A stretch of 64,000 bases of DNA from Gottfriedia acidiceleris. Lineage in GTDB: Bacteria > Bacillota > Bacilli > Bacillales > Bacillaceae_G. The translations under genes and the position numbers were made by a program. Shown here one piece after another: positions 33,388 through 58,280 of the stretch (position 1 is its first letter; each line of letters begins with the position of its first letter). The stretch spans positions 3,658,001-3,722,000 of the forward strand of contig NZ_CP096034.1 of assembly GCF_023115465.1 (NCBI RefSeq). Reading direction: 5' to 3'. The notes under the pieces were generated by a model, which saw nothing but the letters and a program-made list of their open reading frames with translations, searched no databases and was not told the DNA's origin.

Positions 33388-33663
33388 TTGATAATATATT
33401 CAATAGGTATATTTGCCCGGAATATAAGAAGAACTGAACAAACTCTTAGAAATTGGGATAATTCCACAAATTTAAACCGTTTCATGTTTCTGTTAGTGTA
33501 CACGTTATTTTTCGTAAGAACAACTGAATCATTTCTTAAACTTCTTTTATCTAATGTTATAAATATGGAAAATTTAATTCCAATTATTACTGTATTTAGT
33601 TGTAGACTTCAATACAAACGAGAAAATAAAGTTAAGAAAATGATTAAGGAGTTCTTAAGATGA
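33388..33663 (+). CDS. Short ORF translationally coupled to tnpB, unknown
   Basis: About 91 residues from a TTG start with GAGG eight bases upstream, ending in TGA that overlaps the ATG of tnpB (ATGA). The product is basic with a hydrophobic middle. I do not recognise it. It could be a real gene whose ribosomes feed into tnpB, a remnant of the gene that the element interrupted, or a chance frame in the left part of the transposon. Confidence 0.4.
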   Translation: MIIYSIGIFARNIRRTEQTLRNWDNSTNLNRFMFLLVYTLFFVRTTESFLKLLLSNVINMENLIPIITVFSCRLQYKRENKVKKMIKEFLR

Positions 33664-34774
33664 TACATGGGAAGAAAGTGAGATTAAAACCAACTAAAGA
33701 ACAAGAAATTCAATTATGGAAATCAGTAGGTACGGCTCGATGGGCATATAATTGGGCATTAGGTAAGCAAGAAGAGAATTATAAAAAAGATAAGAAAGTC
33801 CTTTCTGATAATTTGTTGAGAAAAGAACTAACTGTATTAAAACAAACAAATGAATATTCCTGGCTGTATGATGTATCAAACAATATTACCAAACAAGCGA
33901 TTAAGGATCTTTGTGAAGCCTATAAGAAATTTTTTAATGGATTAACAGAAAGGCCTCGATTTAAGAGTAAAAGAAAGTCAAAACCTTCTTTTTACAATGA
34001 TAATGTCAAACTAAAAGTTAAAGGGTTTAAAGTATTAGTTGAAAAAGTTGGTTGGATCACAGTCTCTGAAAAGGTTCCAAACGCAAAATACTTCAATCCT
34101 AGAAACAGTTATGACAATAAATATTGGTATTTATCTTTTGTAATGGAAATATCAAAACCAAAGCTTGAATTGACAGATGTCTCATTAGGAATTGACGTAG
34201 GAATAAAAATTTAGCTGTCTGTTCAGATGGTAAGAAAACGAGAAATATTAATAAAACAATTGTGATGAAAAAAGCTGAGAAACACCTACGTAGGTTGCAG
34301 CGTCAAGTTTCTCGAAAATATGAAATGAATAAGGAGGGAAATCGTTTTGTCAAAACAAGCAACATTATAAAAATCGAAAAAAAGATACGACACCTACATA
34401 GACGTTTATCAAATATCAGAAAGAATCATATTCATCAAACAACATGTGATATCGTGAAAACCAAGCCATATCAAGTTGTAATGGAAACATTGAACATTAG
34501 AGGGATGATGAAGAATAAGCATCTCTCTATAGCCATTGCTAAGCAATGTTTGCACGAATTTAAGAGACAAATTAAATACAAATGTGAACAATATGGAATC
34601 GAATTTATTGAAGCTGATAAATGGTACCCATCTTCAAAAATGTGCTCATGTTGTGGACGGATCAAAAAAGACCTAAGACTTTCTGAACGAGTATATAAAT
34701 GTACTTGTGGCCATGAAATGGATAGAGATTTGAATGCTTCTATTAATTTAGCGCGATATCAATTAGCAAATTAA
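33660..34774 (+). pseudogene. tnpB: TnpB-family RNA-guided nuclease/transposon protein with one frameshift
   Basis: The first frame (33660-34214) encodes the N-terminal domain (HGKKVRLKPTKEQE, then WAYNWAL) and ends GIDVGIKI-stop. Inserting one base near 34207-34212 would restore GIDVGIKNLAV and run into the second frame, which carries the second RuvC acid (VMETLNIRGM), a zinc finger (CSCCG...CTCG) and the third acid in MDRDLNAS, up to 34774. All catalytic parts are present, so the lesion is a single-base loss in an A-run, or a sequencing error. AAGGAG eight bases before the ATG supports translation. No tnpA is nearby, so this is an IS1341-like solo tnpB element. Confidence 0.88.
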
Positions 34775-34910
34775 CACTTTAATGTTAATACTAATGTGTA
34801 GGATTCGTTGTATCCGAATTTACGCCCTCGGAGTGTCATATCAAACGAAAGTAGCTTGTAGTTTAGCCAAATCGGACACTTAGAACAGGGAAATAAACAA
34901 AATTTTGATT
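34775..34910 (+). ncRNA. Candidate omega RNA/right end of the tnpB element
   Basis: The 135 bp after tnpB hold a GGATTCG/CGAAT(C)C-type hairpin near 34801-34825, then CAAACGAAAGTAGCTTG and TTTAGCC...TTAGAACAGGG, a pattern like the conserved right ends of IS1341-type elements. In characterised TnpB systems the guide-bearing omega RNA comes from this place. The exact end of the element was not determined. Confidence 0.4.
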
Positions 34911-52528: not shown

Positions 52529-53506
52529 TTAATTTGCTTTGAAATTATAAAGTGGTTTAATGACTTTAATAACTTCGATTGCATCCTTAGTATTTTCAAT
52601 GATTTCTTTCATTTCCTTATAAGCCATTGGACTTTCGTCAAGTGTGCTCTCTAATACTGATGTACTCCAAACATCCTTCATTGTTTCCTTAAATTCATCA
52701 AGTGAAAGAGTTGCTTTTGCTTTTGAACGACTGAGAATTCGACCTGCACCATGAGGGGCCGAATAATTCCAATCCGGGTTACCTTTTCCGATTGCAATCA
52801 AACTACCATCTCGCATGTTGATCGGAATTAATACTTTCTCACCTTTTTGAGCAGAAATTGCACCTTTACGAAGAATCATATTTTCGATATCAATATAATT
52901 ATGAACAGTTGTAAATTGTTCAACAACTGTTAAATCCATATTTTTTACGATTTCATCAATCATTGCCTTCCGGTTCCATAAAGCATATTCTTGGGCAATT
53001 GCCATATCATGCATATATCGATCAAACCAAACTCCTTCTAAATAAGCTAAATCCTTTGGAATATATTGCGATGGAAGGCTTTTTAGGGCAGCCTCAATTT
53101 CTTTTTCGCGGCCTTCATCCCTTAATTGTTGTATGACTTTGGAACGATTTTCTGACTGGCTCTTTAACAATTCATACGCCTTTTTCTGATAAAATTCCGC
53201 TACAACTTTTCCTAAATTTCGGCTTCCAGAGTGAATGACAAAATAAATATTCCCTTCTTCGTCAGCATTACATTCTATGAAATGATTTCCACCACCAAGT
53301 GAACCTAAGCTAAGTTTTGTTCTTATTTCATTTAATTCTTTAAAGCAGTACAGCTTTGAAAAATCAATTTTCTTCACAAATTCATGCTTATTATTTCGAA
53401 TTGAAAACCCTGATGGAACATGTTTACGAATAACAGCATCTAGTTTTTGAAAATCGATTTTTTTTTTTGAAACTCTTATTGTTTCCATTCCGCAACCTAT
53501 ATCGTA
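52529..53506 (-). CDS. rtcB: RNA-splicing ligase RtcB, exon 2
   Basis: RtcB joins RNA 2',3'-cyclic phosphate or 3'-phosphate ends to 5'-OH ends using GTP and Mn2+. This exon begins at or just after the active-site motif DIGCGMETIRV (Asp and Cys bind metal), then carries LGGGNHFIE, IHSGSRNLGK, HNYIDIEN, RKGAISA and the guanylylated-histidine motif SAPHGAGRILSRSKAK. The frame has no start of its own; the first Met (53488) is inside the conserved motif. Together with exon 1 it gives about 395 residues, a normal RtcB length. The 5' boundary may be 53503 (giving GVDIGCGM) or 53506 (giving GVYDIGCGM). Confidence 0.9.
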   Translation of the reverse strand, partial: YDIGCGMETIRVSKKKIDFQKLDAVIRKHVPSGFSIRNNKHEFVKKIDFSKLYCFKELNEIRTKLSLGSLGGGNHFIECNADEEGNIYFVIHSGSRNLGKVVAEFYQKKAYELLKSQSENRSKVIQQLRDEGREKEIEAALKSLPSQYIPKDLAYLEGVWFDRYMHDMAIAQEYALWNRKAMIDEIVKNMDLTVVEQFTTVHNYIDIENMILRKGAISAQKGEKVLIPINMRDGSLIAIGKGNPDWNYSAPHGAGRILSRSKAKATLSLDEFKETMKDVWSTSVLESTLDESPMAYKEMKEIIENTKDAIEVIKVIKPLYNFKAN

Positions 53507-53775
53507 CTTTAAGCTCTAATTTCTTAGAGAGTGGACTATACCTTCTCTACAATCATCGGAGTATGCAGCTCCTTATGTAGGCTCACCGTGTTAATTATTC
53601 CATCCGACATTAGGAAGCAGAATAATTCTGCACAATCGTCTGCTAACAACGTGCAAGTCTCTGAACCATTTGACTATGTCACCATAGCCTCTGGCTGCTG
53701 ATTGCCCTCGACTATAATTTACGTTAGGGTTTCCAGCAATTGAGCGAGTTTTTTAACGTTGGAGCCGTTTTAGTT
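53507..53775 (-). ncRNA. Group I intron (self-splicing) interrupting rtcB
   Basis: Reading the minus strand, the four conserved core elements occur in order: P = AATTGCTGGAAACCC (53741-53727), Q = AATCAGCAGCCAG (53703-53691), R = GTTCAGAGACT (53666-53656), S = AAGGTATAGTCC (53544-53533). P and Q pair as P4 (TGCTG/CAGCA), and GACT of R with AGTC of S as P7. The 5' exon end GTTGGGGTT (53784-53776) pairs over nine bases with the internal guide GGCTCCAAC (53766-53758), with U.G at the splice site (P1). CAACGT and ACGTTG can form P3; GCAGAA/TTCTGC a hairpin in the P8 region; CTCTAA-GAAA-TTAGAG a GNRA-capped P9 (53529-53514). No ORF inside. The intron's last base is G if it ends at 53507; the end is uncertain by three bases. 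Confidence 0.93.
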
Positions 53776-53988
53776 AACCCCAACAAGATTTGGAACGATT
53801 TTATCTTGAATCGTCATTGTCGTTCCAATTGTACATCCCTTACCTGCATGAGTATCAGGCATAATTCTAATTTTAGAACTTTTCACGAACTCTTGATTAC
53901 ATAGTTCAATAATTTGTCCAATTGCTCCTTGTTCCACATTATCTGTAAATATTTTAGCTTCATTAAATGAGCCTTTAACTGTAAGCAT
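53776..53988 (-). CDS. rtcB: RNA-splicing ligase RtcB, exon 1
   Basis: Encodes the first 71 residues of RtcB: from LTVKGSFNEAKIFTDN to the conserved RIMPDTHAGKGCTIGTTMT motif (the His-containing MPDxHxG block) and ends VPNLVGV. The next codons in unspliced RNA are AAC TAA, so translation would stop at once inside the intron. AAGGAG precedes ATGs at 53991 and 53988; the second has better spacing. It joins in frame to exon 2 when the intron is removed. Confidence 0.9.
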
Positions 53989-54822: not shown

Positions 54823-55374
54823 ATGAATCAAAAAGCGCTCATTATTATTGATTATACGAATGACTTTGCAGCAGATGCTGGTTCATTAACTTGTGGCAAA
54901 CCTGCACAAGTTATTGAGCAAAGTATTCTTCAACTAACTAAAAGTTTCATTGAAAATCAAGAATATGTTGTTTTTGCAGTAGATGTCCATGATGAGCATG
55001 ATCCGTTTCATCCTGAAACAAAATTATTTCCACCTCATAATATTAGACATACAAAAGGTAGAGATTTATATGGTGGATTAATGGATTTATACAATTCAAC
55101 AAAAGGCAATTCAACTATTCAATGGCTCGATAAAACTCGTTACTCCGCTTTTGCAGGAACAGACCTTGAAATAAAACTAAATGAAAGAGACATTAACGAA
55201 CTTCATTTAATAGGAGTTTGCACAGATATTTGTGTATTACATACCGCGGTCGATGCTTATAATAAGGGTTATAAAATAGTCGTTCACGAGCAAGCTGTTG
55301 CAAGCTTTAATGCAGCTGGGCATGAATGGGCATTAAGTCATTTCAAAAATACTTTAGGGGCGGAAATAAGATGA
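54823..55374 (+). CDS. pncA: Nicotinamidase/isochorismatase-family hydrolase
   Basis: Deaminates nicotinamide to nicotinate, the entry step of this NAD salvage operon. The 183-residue protein has the catalytic Asp in IIDYTNDF near 8-15, a metal-binding D-H-D-H stretch (VDVHDEHDPFHPE near 53-65), and the nucleophile Cys in LIGVCTDICVLHTAVDAYN near 130-148. GGGGTG precedes the ATG. Its stop overlaps the pncB start (ATGA). Assignment as nicotinamidase rests on the family and on the three NAD genes that follow. Confidence 0.9.
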   Translation: MNQKALIIIDYTNDFAADAGSLTCGKPAQVIEQSILQLTKSFIENQEYVVFAVDVHDEHDPFHPETKLFPPHNIRHTKGRDLYGGLMDLYNSTKGNSTIQWLDKTRYSAFAGTDLEIKLNERDINELHLIGVCTDICVLHTAVDAYNKGYKIVVHEQAVASFNAAGHEWALSHFKNTLGAEIR

Positions 55375-56840
55375 ATTACAACTTTCAAGATGATAGCCTT
55401 GCACTTCATACAGACCTTTATCAAATTAATATGGCGGAAACTTATTGGGGAGACGATATTCACAATAAAAACGCTATTTTTGAACTTTATTTTCGTAAAC
55501 TCCCATTTGGAAATGGATATGCAATCTTTGCGGGTTTAGAAAAAATAATCAGTTATCTACAGAACTTTAAATTTAGTAGTTCAGATCTTGACTATTTAAA
55601 AGAAGAACTCGGTTATAAAGATGAATTCATTCAATTTCTGTCTAATGTAAAATTCACAGGTTCAGTTAGAGCAATTCAAGAAGGTGAATTAGTATTTGGC
55701 AATGAGCCAATCATAAGAATTGAGGCACCACTACTAGAGGCACAATTAATTGAAACTGCCTTATTAAACATTGTCAATTATCAAACATTAATTGCTACGA
55801 AAGCATCAAGAATAAAACATATCGTTGGTAAAGATACATTAATGGAATTTGGAACAAGACGAGCTCAAGAATTTGATGCTGCTATCTGGGGAGCAAGAGC
55901 CGCTTTTATTGGTGGATTCCATGCGACTAGTAATGTTCGTGCAGGTAAATTATTTAATATTCCTGTTTCAGGTACACATGCTCATGCGCTCGTGCAAGCA
56001 TATCGAGATGAATACATAGCTTTCAAAAAATATGCAGATCGTCATTACAATTGTACATTCCTAGTTGATACATACGATACACTAAAAAGTGGTGTGCCTA
56101 ATGCGATTAAAGTCGCAAAAGAACTAGGTGACAAAATTAACTTTGCAGCTATCCGACTAGATAGTGGTGACTTAGCCTATTTATCGAAAGAAGCTAGAAA
56201 AATGCTCGATGAAGCAGGTTTCGTAAATACAAAAATTGTTGCTTCGAATGATTTAGATGAATATACAATTTTAAATTTAAAATCGCAAGGAGCTAAAATT
56301 GATTCTTGGGGAATCGGAACAAAGCTTATTACAGCATATGATCAACCGGCTCTTGGAGCTGTTTATAAATTAGTCAGTATTGAAGATGAAGATGGGAAAA
56401 TGATTGATACAATAAAAATTTCTCAAAACCCTGAAAAAGTAACAACTCCTGGACTTAAGAAATTGTATCGAATTATTAATACAATTAACCATCACGCTGA
56501 GGCTGATTATATTGCCCTTGAAGATGAAAATCCAGGGTCTGAGGAAAAAATAAAGTTATTCCATCCGGTCCATCCATATATCAGTAAGTTTGTAACTAAT
56601 TTTGAAGCTAGAGAACTTCATCACCAAATCTTTACTAAAGGTGAATTAGTCTACAAAGTGCCTACAATTAAAGACATTCAAGATTTTGCTGAAAACAACT
56701 TAAGTTTACTTTGGGAAGAATACAAGCGTGCATTAAACCCTGAAGAATATCCTGTAGACTTAAGTCAAAAATGTTGGGATAACAAAATGGAAAAAATAGC
56801 AGAAGCTAGAAAGAAAACAGAGGAAATGAAAAATGGCTAA
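55371..56840 (+). CDS. pncB: Nicotinate phosphoribosyltransferase
   Basis: Converts nicotinate and PRPP to nicotinate mononucleotide. The 489-residue protein starts LALHTDLYQINMAETYW and contains EFGTRRAQEFDAAIWGARAA near 160-179 and the phosphate loop region DSGDLAYLSKEAR near 263-275. The start at 55371 overlaps the pncA stop by ATGA, with GGGGCGG upstream; the frame continues 15 codons further without reason. It overlaps nadD by 8 bp. Confidence 0.93.
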   Translation: MNYNFQDDSLALHTDLYQINMAETYWGDDIHNKNAIFELYFRKLPFGNGYAIFAGLEKIISYLQNFKFSSSDLDYLKEELGYKDEFIQFLSNVKFTGSVRAIQEGELVFGNEPIIRIEAPLLEAQLIETALLNIVNYQTLIATKASRIKHIVGKDTLMEFGTRRAQEFDAAIWGARAAFIGGFHATSNVRAGKLFNIPVSGTHAHALVQAYRDEYIAFKKYADRHYNCTFLVDTYDTLKSGVPNAIKVAKELGDKINFAAIRLDSGDLAYLSKEARKMLDEAGFVNTKIVASNDLDEYTILNLKSQGAKIDSWGIGTKLITAYDQPALGAVYKLVSIEDEDGKMIDTIKISQNPEKVTTPGLKKLYRIINTINHHAEADYIALEDENPGSEEKIKLFHPVHPYISKFVTNFEARELHHQIFTKGELVYKVPTIKDIQDFAENNLSLLWEEYKRALNPEEYPVDLSQKCWDNKMEKIAEARKKTEEMKNG

Positions 56841-57462
56841 AATTGGGATTTATGGCAGTTCGTTTGATCCGATTACAAACGTTCATTTATGGACTGCAAG
56901 TACGATTGCTCATCGTTGTCAATTAGACAAAGTTATCTTTTTACCATGCTCTTCAAAAAGAAGAGATAAACAATTACATAATACTGATGAACATCGTTGG
57001 AATATGTTAAAATTGGCTATTCAAAACAATTCAAAGTTTATTGCAGACGATTATGAAATGAGCAAAGAGGCATGGGAAGTATTCACTTACTATACAATGA
57101 ACCATTTTAAAGCGAAATATAGTGAAGATGAAGTTTATTTCATAATGGGAGCTGATCTCCTAGAAGATATTGCAGAAGGAAAATGGAAATACGGGGATCA
57201 ATTAGTTTCCGAAAATAAATTCATTGTCATGGCCCGTGATGGAATTGATATGCTAAAGACCATCTCTCGTTCTCCTTTATTAAGAAATAATGATAATGGT
57301 TCAAGATTTCATCTAATTGATAAAGGACTAGCGATGGAAATTAGTTCAACATATATCCGTGAAGAGTTTGCTAAAGGCGGCGAACCAAGATATTTATTAC
57401 CTGAGGATTGCTACGCTTATATTAAAAAATACAATCTGTATCAAAAGGAGAATGAAGATTGA
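56833..57462 (+). CDS. nadD: Nicotinate-nucleotide adenylyltransferase
   Basis: Adenylates nicotinate mononucleotide to deamido-NAD. The 209-residue protein carries the nucleotidyltransferase motifs [12 protein letters not shown] near 8-19 and [10 protein letters not shown] near 171-180. It is somewhat different from the usual short YqeJ-type NadD (MGADLLEDI in place of the common GxDxxxxL stretch), so it is probably a second, operon-borne enzyme. It overlaps pncB by 8 bp and nadE by 4 bp. Confidence 0.9.
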
Positions 57463-58280
57463 ACAGTTTACAAAAAGAAATCGTCGAAGAAATGAAAGTA
57501 AAGCCAGTTATCGATCCTAAAGAGGAAGTAAGAATAAGTGTTGACTTCCTAAAAAGCTATCTTAAAAAACATCCATTTTTAAATGGTTTTGTATTAGGTA
57601 TTTCAGGTGGTCAAGATTCAACTTTAACTGGTAAACTTGCACAAATGGCAATAGATGAATTAAATAGTGAGCAATCAGAAAAAAGTTATCTGTTTATCGC
57701 CATTCGATTACCATATGGCGTACAAATGGACGAAGAGGATTGCCAGGAAGCGTTAAAGTTTATCCAACCGTCTAAGACTTACACAGTGAATATTAAAGCT
57801 GCTGTAGATGCTAGTGTTAATACATTAAAAGATATTGGCATTGACCTTACTGATTTTGCAAAAGGAAATGAAAAAGCACGTGAAAGAATGAAAGCTCAAT
57901 ATAGCATTGCTGCTATGAATGGGTGTGTTGTCTTAGGCACTGACCATTCCGCTGAGGCTGTTACTGGCTTTTACACTAAATATGGCGATGGTGGATCAGA
58001 CCTTTGTCCGATTTTCCGTCTAAATAAGCGTCAAGGAAAGATGCTACTAAAAGAATTAAATTGCCCACCTAAGCTTTATGAAAAAGTTCCGACAGCTGAC
58101 CTTGAAGAAGATCGCCCACAATTAGCTGATGAAGTCGCTCTTGGAGTTACATATGATGACATCGATGATTATTTAGAAGGTAAAGAAATTAATAGTGAAT
58201 CTCAAGCAAAAATCGAATCATGGTTTAATAAATCTAGACATAAGCGACAAATGCCTTACACTGTTTTTGATAAATTTTAA
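57459..58280 (+). CDS. nadE: Ammonia-dependent NAD synthetase
   Basis: Amidates deamido-NAD to NAD with ATP and ammonia. The 273-residue protein has the PP-loop [14 protein letters not shown] near 47-60 and the downstream [19 protein letters not shown] near 164-182. There is no glutaminase domain, so it uses free ammonia. The start is TTG at 57459, overlapping the nadD stop (TTGA), with AAGGAG eight bases upstream. Last gene of pncA-pncB-nadD-nadE; a terminator follows. Confidence 0.95.

Follow-up and report, generated by a model that had tools for sequence, protein, structure and literature searches.

A likely self-splicing group I intron with an apparent terminal adenosine in the RNA ligase gene rtcB of Gottfriedia acidiceleris

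Group I introns end almost universally in a guanosine (omega-G), which is characteristic of them, although not strictly required. An adenosine at this position is rare, and to our knowledge the sole precedent is in the 23S rRNA of Coxiella, where the intron lacking omega-G is reportedly Cbu.L1917, with A as its last nucleotide. At the 5' end and in the core, the intron described here can be compared to the T4 td intron, which starts UAAY after a U. The 23S rRNA intron of Coxiella burnetii is given as self-splicing and lacking the canonical omega-G (Raghavan 2007); the present intron likewise appears to lack omega-G, but its host is a protein gene rather than an rRNA gene. Group I introns are described in the recA, nrdE and flagellin genes of Bacillus, and in-frame stops in many group I introns (PMC3984707); these are chromosomal protein genes like the one studied here, but different hosts. 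A survey of the phage subfamily Bastillevirinae reports introns in DNA polymerase, terminase, thymidylate synthase and ribonucleotide reductase (RNR) genes; their cores are mostly IA-like, their loops hold HNH or LAGLIDADG reading frames, and splicing of some has been seen in vivo or in vitro (Weglewska 2025, PMC11878797). Goe20 and Goe27, two phages with introns in rtcB, belong to this subfamily, but the main text of the survey contains neither 'RtcB' nor 'ligase', and their genus, Grisebachstrassevirus, is absent from its table of invaded genera (PMC11878797). A full-text literature search, with most subscription papers outside its scope, returned no report of a group I intron in rtcB or a tRNA-splicing ligase gene; a search on omega-A wording also found nothing, a weak negative as wording varies and coverage is partial. 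We class rtcB as a new host gene for a group I intron, one whose last nucleotide appears to be non-canonical.

The window, the whole 64,000-nucleotide stretch of DNA analyzed from the soil bacterium Gottfriedia acidiceleris, carries on its minus strand an rtcB gene which, as judged from its open reading frames, is interrupted by a short insert. Exon 1 (53777..53988; minus strand, as are all intron and exon features below) comprises 70 codons and the GT of a valine codon, with the start codon picked by conservation among Gottfriedia. Exon 2 (52529..53504) supplies the C of that codon, then GAT and the DIGCGMET segment through to the stop, and the Pfam family PF01139 matches both halves (1e-50 and 9e-7). 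Without splicing, translation ends after GGG GTT AAC TAA. The insert (53505..53776, 272 nucleotides) starts UAAC and ends GUA, its ends being placed from the reading frame, P9.0, P10 and sister introns, and the evidence supports its being a group I intron without homing endonuclease, likely self-splicing.

A permissive search of positions 53400-53900 (501 bases) with the Rfam group I intron model RF00028 gave a match at 53801-53513 spanning the whole model (1-253 of 253; 45.9 bits, E=1.4e-10). Together with covariation and the absence of an ORF, this bears out the proposal of the initial annotation that rtcB holds a group I intron without a homing endonuclease. The match is below the gathering score of 50 bits, which is a cut-off and not a structural feature; the whole Rfam library, run by cmscan at gathering thresholds over the window, did not list the rtcB intron. 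Copies of the intron in Bacillus changyiensis and Bacillus sp. WMMC1349 scored 50.2 and 45.4 bits. RF00028 is filter-sensitive, because on 3.3-kb loci it listed neither the G010 copy nor an intron in thyA that reaches 67.6 bits in a whole-genome search; that search found two places in the G. acidiceleris genome, rtcB and the stronger thyA.

The thyA intron (G000:C1:1979774-1980108; L001 1511-1845) is about 335 nucleotides long, has no ORF, and lies between CGT (Arg) and TCA GCT GAC, with omega-G (ends set by eye). It shares the core and the UAAY start after U with the rtcB intron, but differs in its omega-G and its thyA host.

A hand-drawn structure of 68 pairs, including the P3/P7 pseudoknot, was counted on an alignment of 11 sequences. 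Overall, 98.3% of cells pair (87.9-100% by helix), and two-sided changes occur in 8 of the 13 helices. These changes affect 10 pairs and 21 cells, as against shuffle means of 4.1 and 5.2 with none of 500 shuffles as high, and at most 2 pairs and 3 cells when the structure is slid along the alignment. Four of the five covariation measures exceed the shuffles, the exception being 'further pair types' (25 versus 23.1, 83 of 500 shuffles as high). P4, P6, P7 and P9.0 are invariant in the 11 sequences, so no covariation support for them comes from this set, and the lowest pairing (87.9%) is that of P9, by eye due to a shifted register in the viral copies L231 and L232. The full-model match and the covariation thus describe the conserved P3-P9 core, with its P3/P7 pseudoknot, of a group I intron.

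Within this core, P3 joins CUCGCU (53743..53748) to GGUGAG (53582..53587), strands placed by alignment and showing a two-sided change in relatives; the P3 initially proposed (CAACGT/ACGTTG) has to be abandoned, as its 3' half falls in P7.1. The P4-P5 domain (53696..53738) and the 5' strand of P7, the guanosine-binding site (53656..53661), follow RF00028 and the covariation count, and the P6/P6a hairpin GGCUAUG...CAUAGUC (53666..53694) has a two-sided change in P6a. The 3' strand of P7, AGUCC (53533..53537), was set by RF00028 and pair counting, its outermost C pair by eye. P8/P8a (53547..53580) and the P9 hairpin CUCUAA-GAAA-UUAGAG (53514..53529) rest on pair counts, and the P7.1/P7.2 extension (53593..53655) on alignments, which together with the phage ORFs also show that the P7.2 arms enclose a hypervariable loop (53601-53619), the site of an HNH reading frame in phage copies.

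P1 pairs the strand GUUGGGGU followed by U (53776..53784, of which 53784-53777 are exonic and 53776 would be the first intron base) with the internal guide sequence GGCUCCAAC (53758..53766), as placed by pair counting and by reading the splice choices. The nine base pairs first reported hold, but the U.G pair at the 5' splice site proves ambiguous by one position, since the last two pairs are both U.G, unchanged in 11 of 11 sequences. In L231 and L232, P1 has a U-A to C-G change and also one mismatch.

Seven splice choices were translated, of which only two rebuild VGVDIGCG: cleavage after U8 (53777) with A53505 last before CGAU, and cleavage after U9 (53776) with C last before GAU. The in-frame choices that end on a canonical G yield either an extra tyrosine or a tyrosine replacing valine. 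The boundaries initially given, 53775 and 53507 (cleavage after U9, with G53507 as omega), are of the first kind and leave an extra Tyr codon (VGVYDIGCG); cleavage after G6 with the same G yields VGYDIGCG, and after U8 a frameshift and then a stop. Comparison of the copies moves the 3' site two nucleotides further on, and the intron most likely runs from 53776 to 53505, with A in place of the near-universal terminal G.

Two tertiary pairings carry this placement. P9.0 joins AC (53531..53532), directly 3' of P7, to GU (53506..53507), a strand placed by comparison with sister introns and whose G is the omega-G of the initial annotation. In 13 of 15 copies this pairing is present and is followed by A, at 53505..53505 in the window. 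The inferred last base is thus A in 13 of the 15 copies and G in two, as read from a DNA comparison of copies that, being homologous, amount to few independent observations. The two with omega-G are those of Goe20 and Goe27, which have no P9.0 pair, so the P9.0 rule is not absolute. P10 would be formed by the guide strand at 53766..53769 (AACG here, AUCG or GUCG in others) and exon CGAU at 53504-53501 (CGAC in CM1). Two to four consecutive pairs are present in all 15 copies (four in seven, three in one and two in seven), with only two in the window copy and in 7 of the 8 Gottfriedia copies; the alternative register makes no pairs in any of the 15.

Five control introns make both P9.0 pairs just before omega, which in each is G: the polymerase introns of Grass, SIOphi, L296 and PM135, and the second rtcB intron of Goe20. 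Control boundaries were placed by hand in this count. Grass and SIOphi were bounded against the intronless SBSphiJ2 and BSP15, the L296 ends follow from Grass, and those of PM135 and of Goe20 intron 2 were set by eye, from the polymerase motif and against Goe3 respectively. The thyA control fell outside the pattern used for the count and by eye makes one of two P9.0 pairs. Set side by side, the Grass end UAAAGU-G/CAG and the Gottfriedia end UUAAAGU-A/CGAU indicate that the omega-G first proposed has its Grass counterpart at a position other than omega; the equivalent position in the Grass and SIOphi polymerase introns reads GU-G/CA, where omega is the final G and not the one two bases before it. 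At the 5' end, rtcB copies have UAAC after U8, in 15 of 15 as a consequence of the search pattern used in the count, and the Grass and SIOphi polymerase introns and the thyA intron start UAAY, as does that of T4 td. Goe20 intron 2 starts AAAA, so this rule is not general.

The polymerase introns of Grass, SIOphi and a viral contig (L297, L299 and L296) also end in a motif (GU-G) like that of the rtcB intron, and such resemblances suggest one intron family in several host genes.

These comparisons bear on two readings that keep a canonical terminal G. Cleavage after U9 with G53507 as omega combines the canonical U.G pair and terminal G in frame, and the TAC it would retain is conserved in 13 of 15 copies. 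Against it, G53507 makes no P9.0 pair in those 13 copies and no P10 pair, the intron would start AACU where Grass, SIOphi and thyA have UAAY (Goe20 intron 2 differs), and the same G is not omega in the Grass polymerase intron. It would moreover insert a residue (VGV-Y-DIGCG) beside a metal-binding aspartate, and its frame excludes Goe20; we regard it as unlikely. Cleavage after G6 with the same G is far less likely still: the product VG-Y-DIGCG has the length seen in relatives, and tyrosine before the aspartate is natural in archaeal RtcB (IGYDINCG in Pyrococcus horikoshii), but it requires G.U instead of U.G at the cleavage site, lacks a P9.0 pair, is ruled out for Goe20 by frame, and replaces a valine found in all nine intronless relatives whose motif was read.

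With the ends at 53776 and 53505, P1 would present U8 in a U.G pair, and an exogenous guanosine would attack there and free the 5' exon. The last intron nucleotide, placed by P9.0, would then enter the guanosine site in P7, and the 3'-OH of the 5' exon would attack after it, with P10 aligning the 3' exon. The spliced product would read ...PNLVG(GT^C)V-DIGCG, of the same length there as intronless RtcB. By count on an alignment, the intron lies one nucleotide ahead of the codon aligned with D95 of P. horikoshii RtcB, which we take to have a role in metal binding.

Strong purifying selection acts on both exons, with dN/dS of 0.041 in the first and 0.046 in the second (28 pairs from 8 species, a set that omits the pair WMMC1349 and B. 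changyiensis, misaligned by an indel), which argues that the rtcB mRNA is very probably spliced. The second ORF of the unspliced gene, exon 2 from its own ATG, lacks both an Asp and a Cys that are metal ligands, and this too makes splicing very likely. A gene that is dead or split, its insert unspliced and its halves pseudogenes or separate proteins, would fit the second ATG that opens exon 2 and the further exon 2 break in the viral copy L231, but is very hard to reconcile with a dN/dS of about 0.04 on both exons in eight species, with the missing Asp and Cys, and with a ribozyme core conserved through compensating changes.

Both the same intron and intron-free alleles occur in relatives, where the initial annotation had proposed to look for them: 8 Gottfriedia and 2 Bacillus genomes carry it, and intronless relatives are present. 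A DNA search found the insert in 8 of 60 genomes (G. acidiceleris included), all in its genus, of which two genomes bear the name Gottfriedia. By protein search, rtcB is 92-100% identical in 8 of 13 genus genomes, and the same eight carry the intron (8 of 8); of the other five, one has a 52% identical relative without intron (NLVGVDVGCG), three have only a distant paralogue and one has none. A scan of named genomes (19 loci) found the insert at the same rtcB site in Bacillus sp. WMMC1349 and B. changyiensis, and 11 other bacterial relatives read uninterrupted there. The covariance model R1, run with strict filters on 398 class and 398 phylum genomes at E<=1e-12, found G. acidiceleris only. Among 397 genomes of the order, 33 match at E<=0.001; 8 matches are strong, all in the genus, and 25 are weak (E 3.6e-10 or worse) and probably other group I introns. 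Among the Gottfriedia copies, distances in the intron rise with those in the exons (Pearson 0.77 over 28 non-independent pairs).

Outside bacteria, the insert matches 81 of 50,697 phage records by blastn at E<=1, mostly over a short core only. Three Bacillus phages (CM1, Goe20 and Goe27) cover at least 80% of the insert, all in rtcB at the same site. Their introns are 825-841 nucleotides long and hold an HNH ORF, absent from the window copy, in the loop that is hypervariable in bacterial copies. PHROG HNH matches reached 1.9e-22 for CM1, 8.7e-21 for Goe20 and 2.5e-22 for Goe27, and Pfam assigned the intron ORFs of CM1 and Goe20 to no family. RF00028 run on whole phage loci did not list these first introns (none for CM1 at E<=0.001) and sees the CM1 intron only as two weak pieces of 26.7 and 20.9 bits; R1 scores the first introns at 154-162 bits in the 5' part and 50-77 bits in the 3' part. 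The viral contigs L231 and L232 have an ORF-less copy at the same site, that of L231 being 90.7% identical to the CM1 copy, and the L231 rtcB has a further break in exon 2. Goe3, BM15 (L195), L197 and L201 are intronless there.

A viral scan with a gapped P1 pattern found no rtcB exon before the match in the 120 stretches examined, among the matches listed. An S-element pattern gave eight loci, of which L193 and L194 are the L231 and L232 contigs and L295 and L296 became controls; L292 reads as an RNR exon with a chance S-element match.

The rtcB of Goe20 also has a second group I intron (L059 3563-4685; 72.2 bits with RF00028) that holds a LAGLIDADG ORF and lies at the site GGAGGT^AATCAC (ends by eye against Goe3). 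Goe27 has the same two-intron layout and a similar ORF.

On an RtcB tree of 39 rows, the distribution of the intron takes at least five gains or losses to explain. The Gottfriedia sequences, eight in all, make up a single clade, and the rtcB genes of the two Bacillus cluster with those of phages (87/85 support). Ten rows were left out before the count as truncated, intein-bearing, atypical or duplicate (L231, L218, L219, L225, Goe27, L206, L198, L213, L214 and L224). The tree also leaves out viral loci L233-L260 and any locus whose ORF did not contain the search motif, and Goe20 entered by the part after its second intron only. One site appears to have been invaded repeatedly, with intronless sisters, as is expected of a mobile intron, and the count of gains or losses points to a homing intron of some age whose endonuclease has been lost. 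We infer repeated homing via phages, followed by endonuclease loss and vertical inheritance in Gottfriedia.

The initial annotation had further suggested that RtcB activity and the intron ends influence one another, or that splicing controls the supply of RtcB. The host gene does encode an RNA ligase, and an omega-A might conceivably slow the second step. Group I splicing, however, leaves a 3'-OH and a 5'-phosphate or 5'-G, whereas RtcB joins 2',3'-cyclic-phosphate and 5'-OH ends, so group I ends are not RtcB substrates; mutual influence is chemically unlikely, and no observation speaks for it. Control of supply finds no support either: related intron cores occur in DNA polymerase genes, an uninterrupted RtcB paralogue of 372 amino acids is present in the genome (G000:C1:2231317-2232168), and homing explains the distribution and placement of the intron. 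We give a regulatory role of either kind very little credence.

Two other features of the window may be recorded. Beside rtcB, a cluster for NAD salvage (54823-58280) has nicotinamidase, nicotinate phosphoribosyltransferase, nadD-like and nadE-like genes in a row, named from reading the ORFs. A RAGATH-18 RNA (34825-34892, plus strand, 68.6 bits) lies directly 3' of a pair of tnpB-like ORFs (33660-34214 and 34262-34774; PF12323 and PF07282), which look like one gene in two pieces, the RNA lying where a TnpB guide RNA is expected.

Some viral RtcB sequences (L218 and L219, by motif also L251, L254 and L258) carry a putative intein starting at the active-site cysteine (DIG^C), which on reading the sequence begins 10 nucleotides downstream of the intron site. 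A Pfam search of L218 found RtcB only and no intein domain; the first 75 residues of L218 match CM1 RtcB at 97% identity.

Taken as a whole, it is highly likely that the rtcB insert is an omega-A group I intron, descended from a homing intron that lost its endonuclease and inherited vertically in Gottfriedia. The five intron-bearing lineages on the RtcB tree read omega as A in four and G in one, at the same site. From these sequences, a group I lineage in a protein-coding gene appears likely to have swapped omega-G for A and kept the A while homing through phages and bacteria, so that omega-A would be a working, inherited 3' end in a canonical guanosine site, perhaps aided by a fully Watson-Crick P9.0.

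With this intron, rtcB would be added to the few bacterial protein genes known to carry group I introns. The RtcB active-site motif may be a homing hotspot, as in some viral RtcBs a putative intein lies 10 nucleotides downstream of the intron site. A single site at which apparent omega-A introns (in bacteria, CM1 and two viral contigs), an omega-G intron (in Goe20 and Goe27) and intronless alleles are all found would allow natural, matched comparisons of whether the second splicing step really requires omega-G and of how splice sites are chosen.
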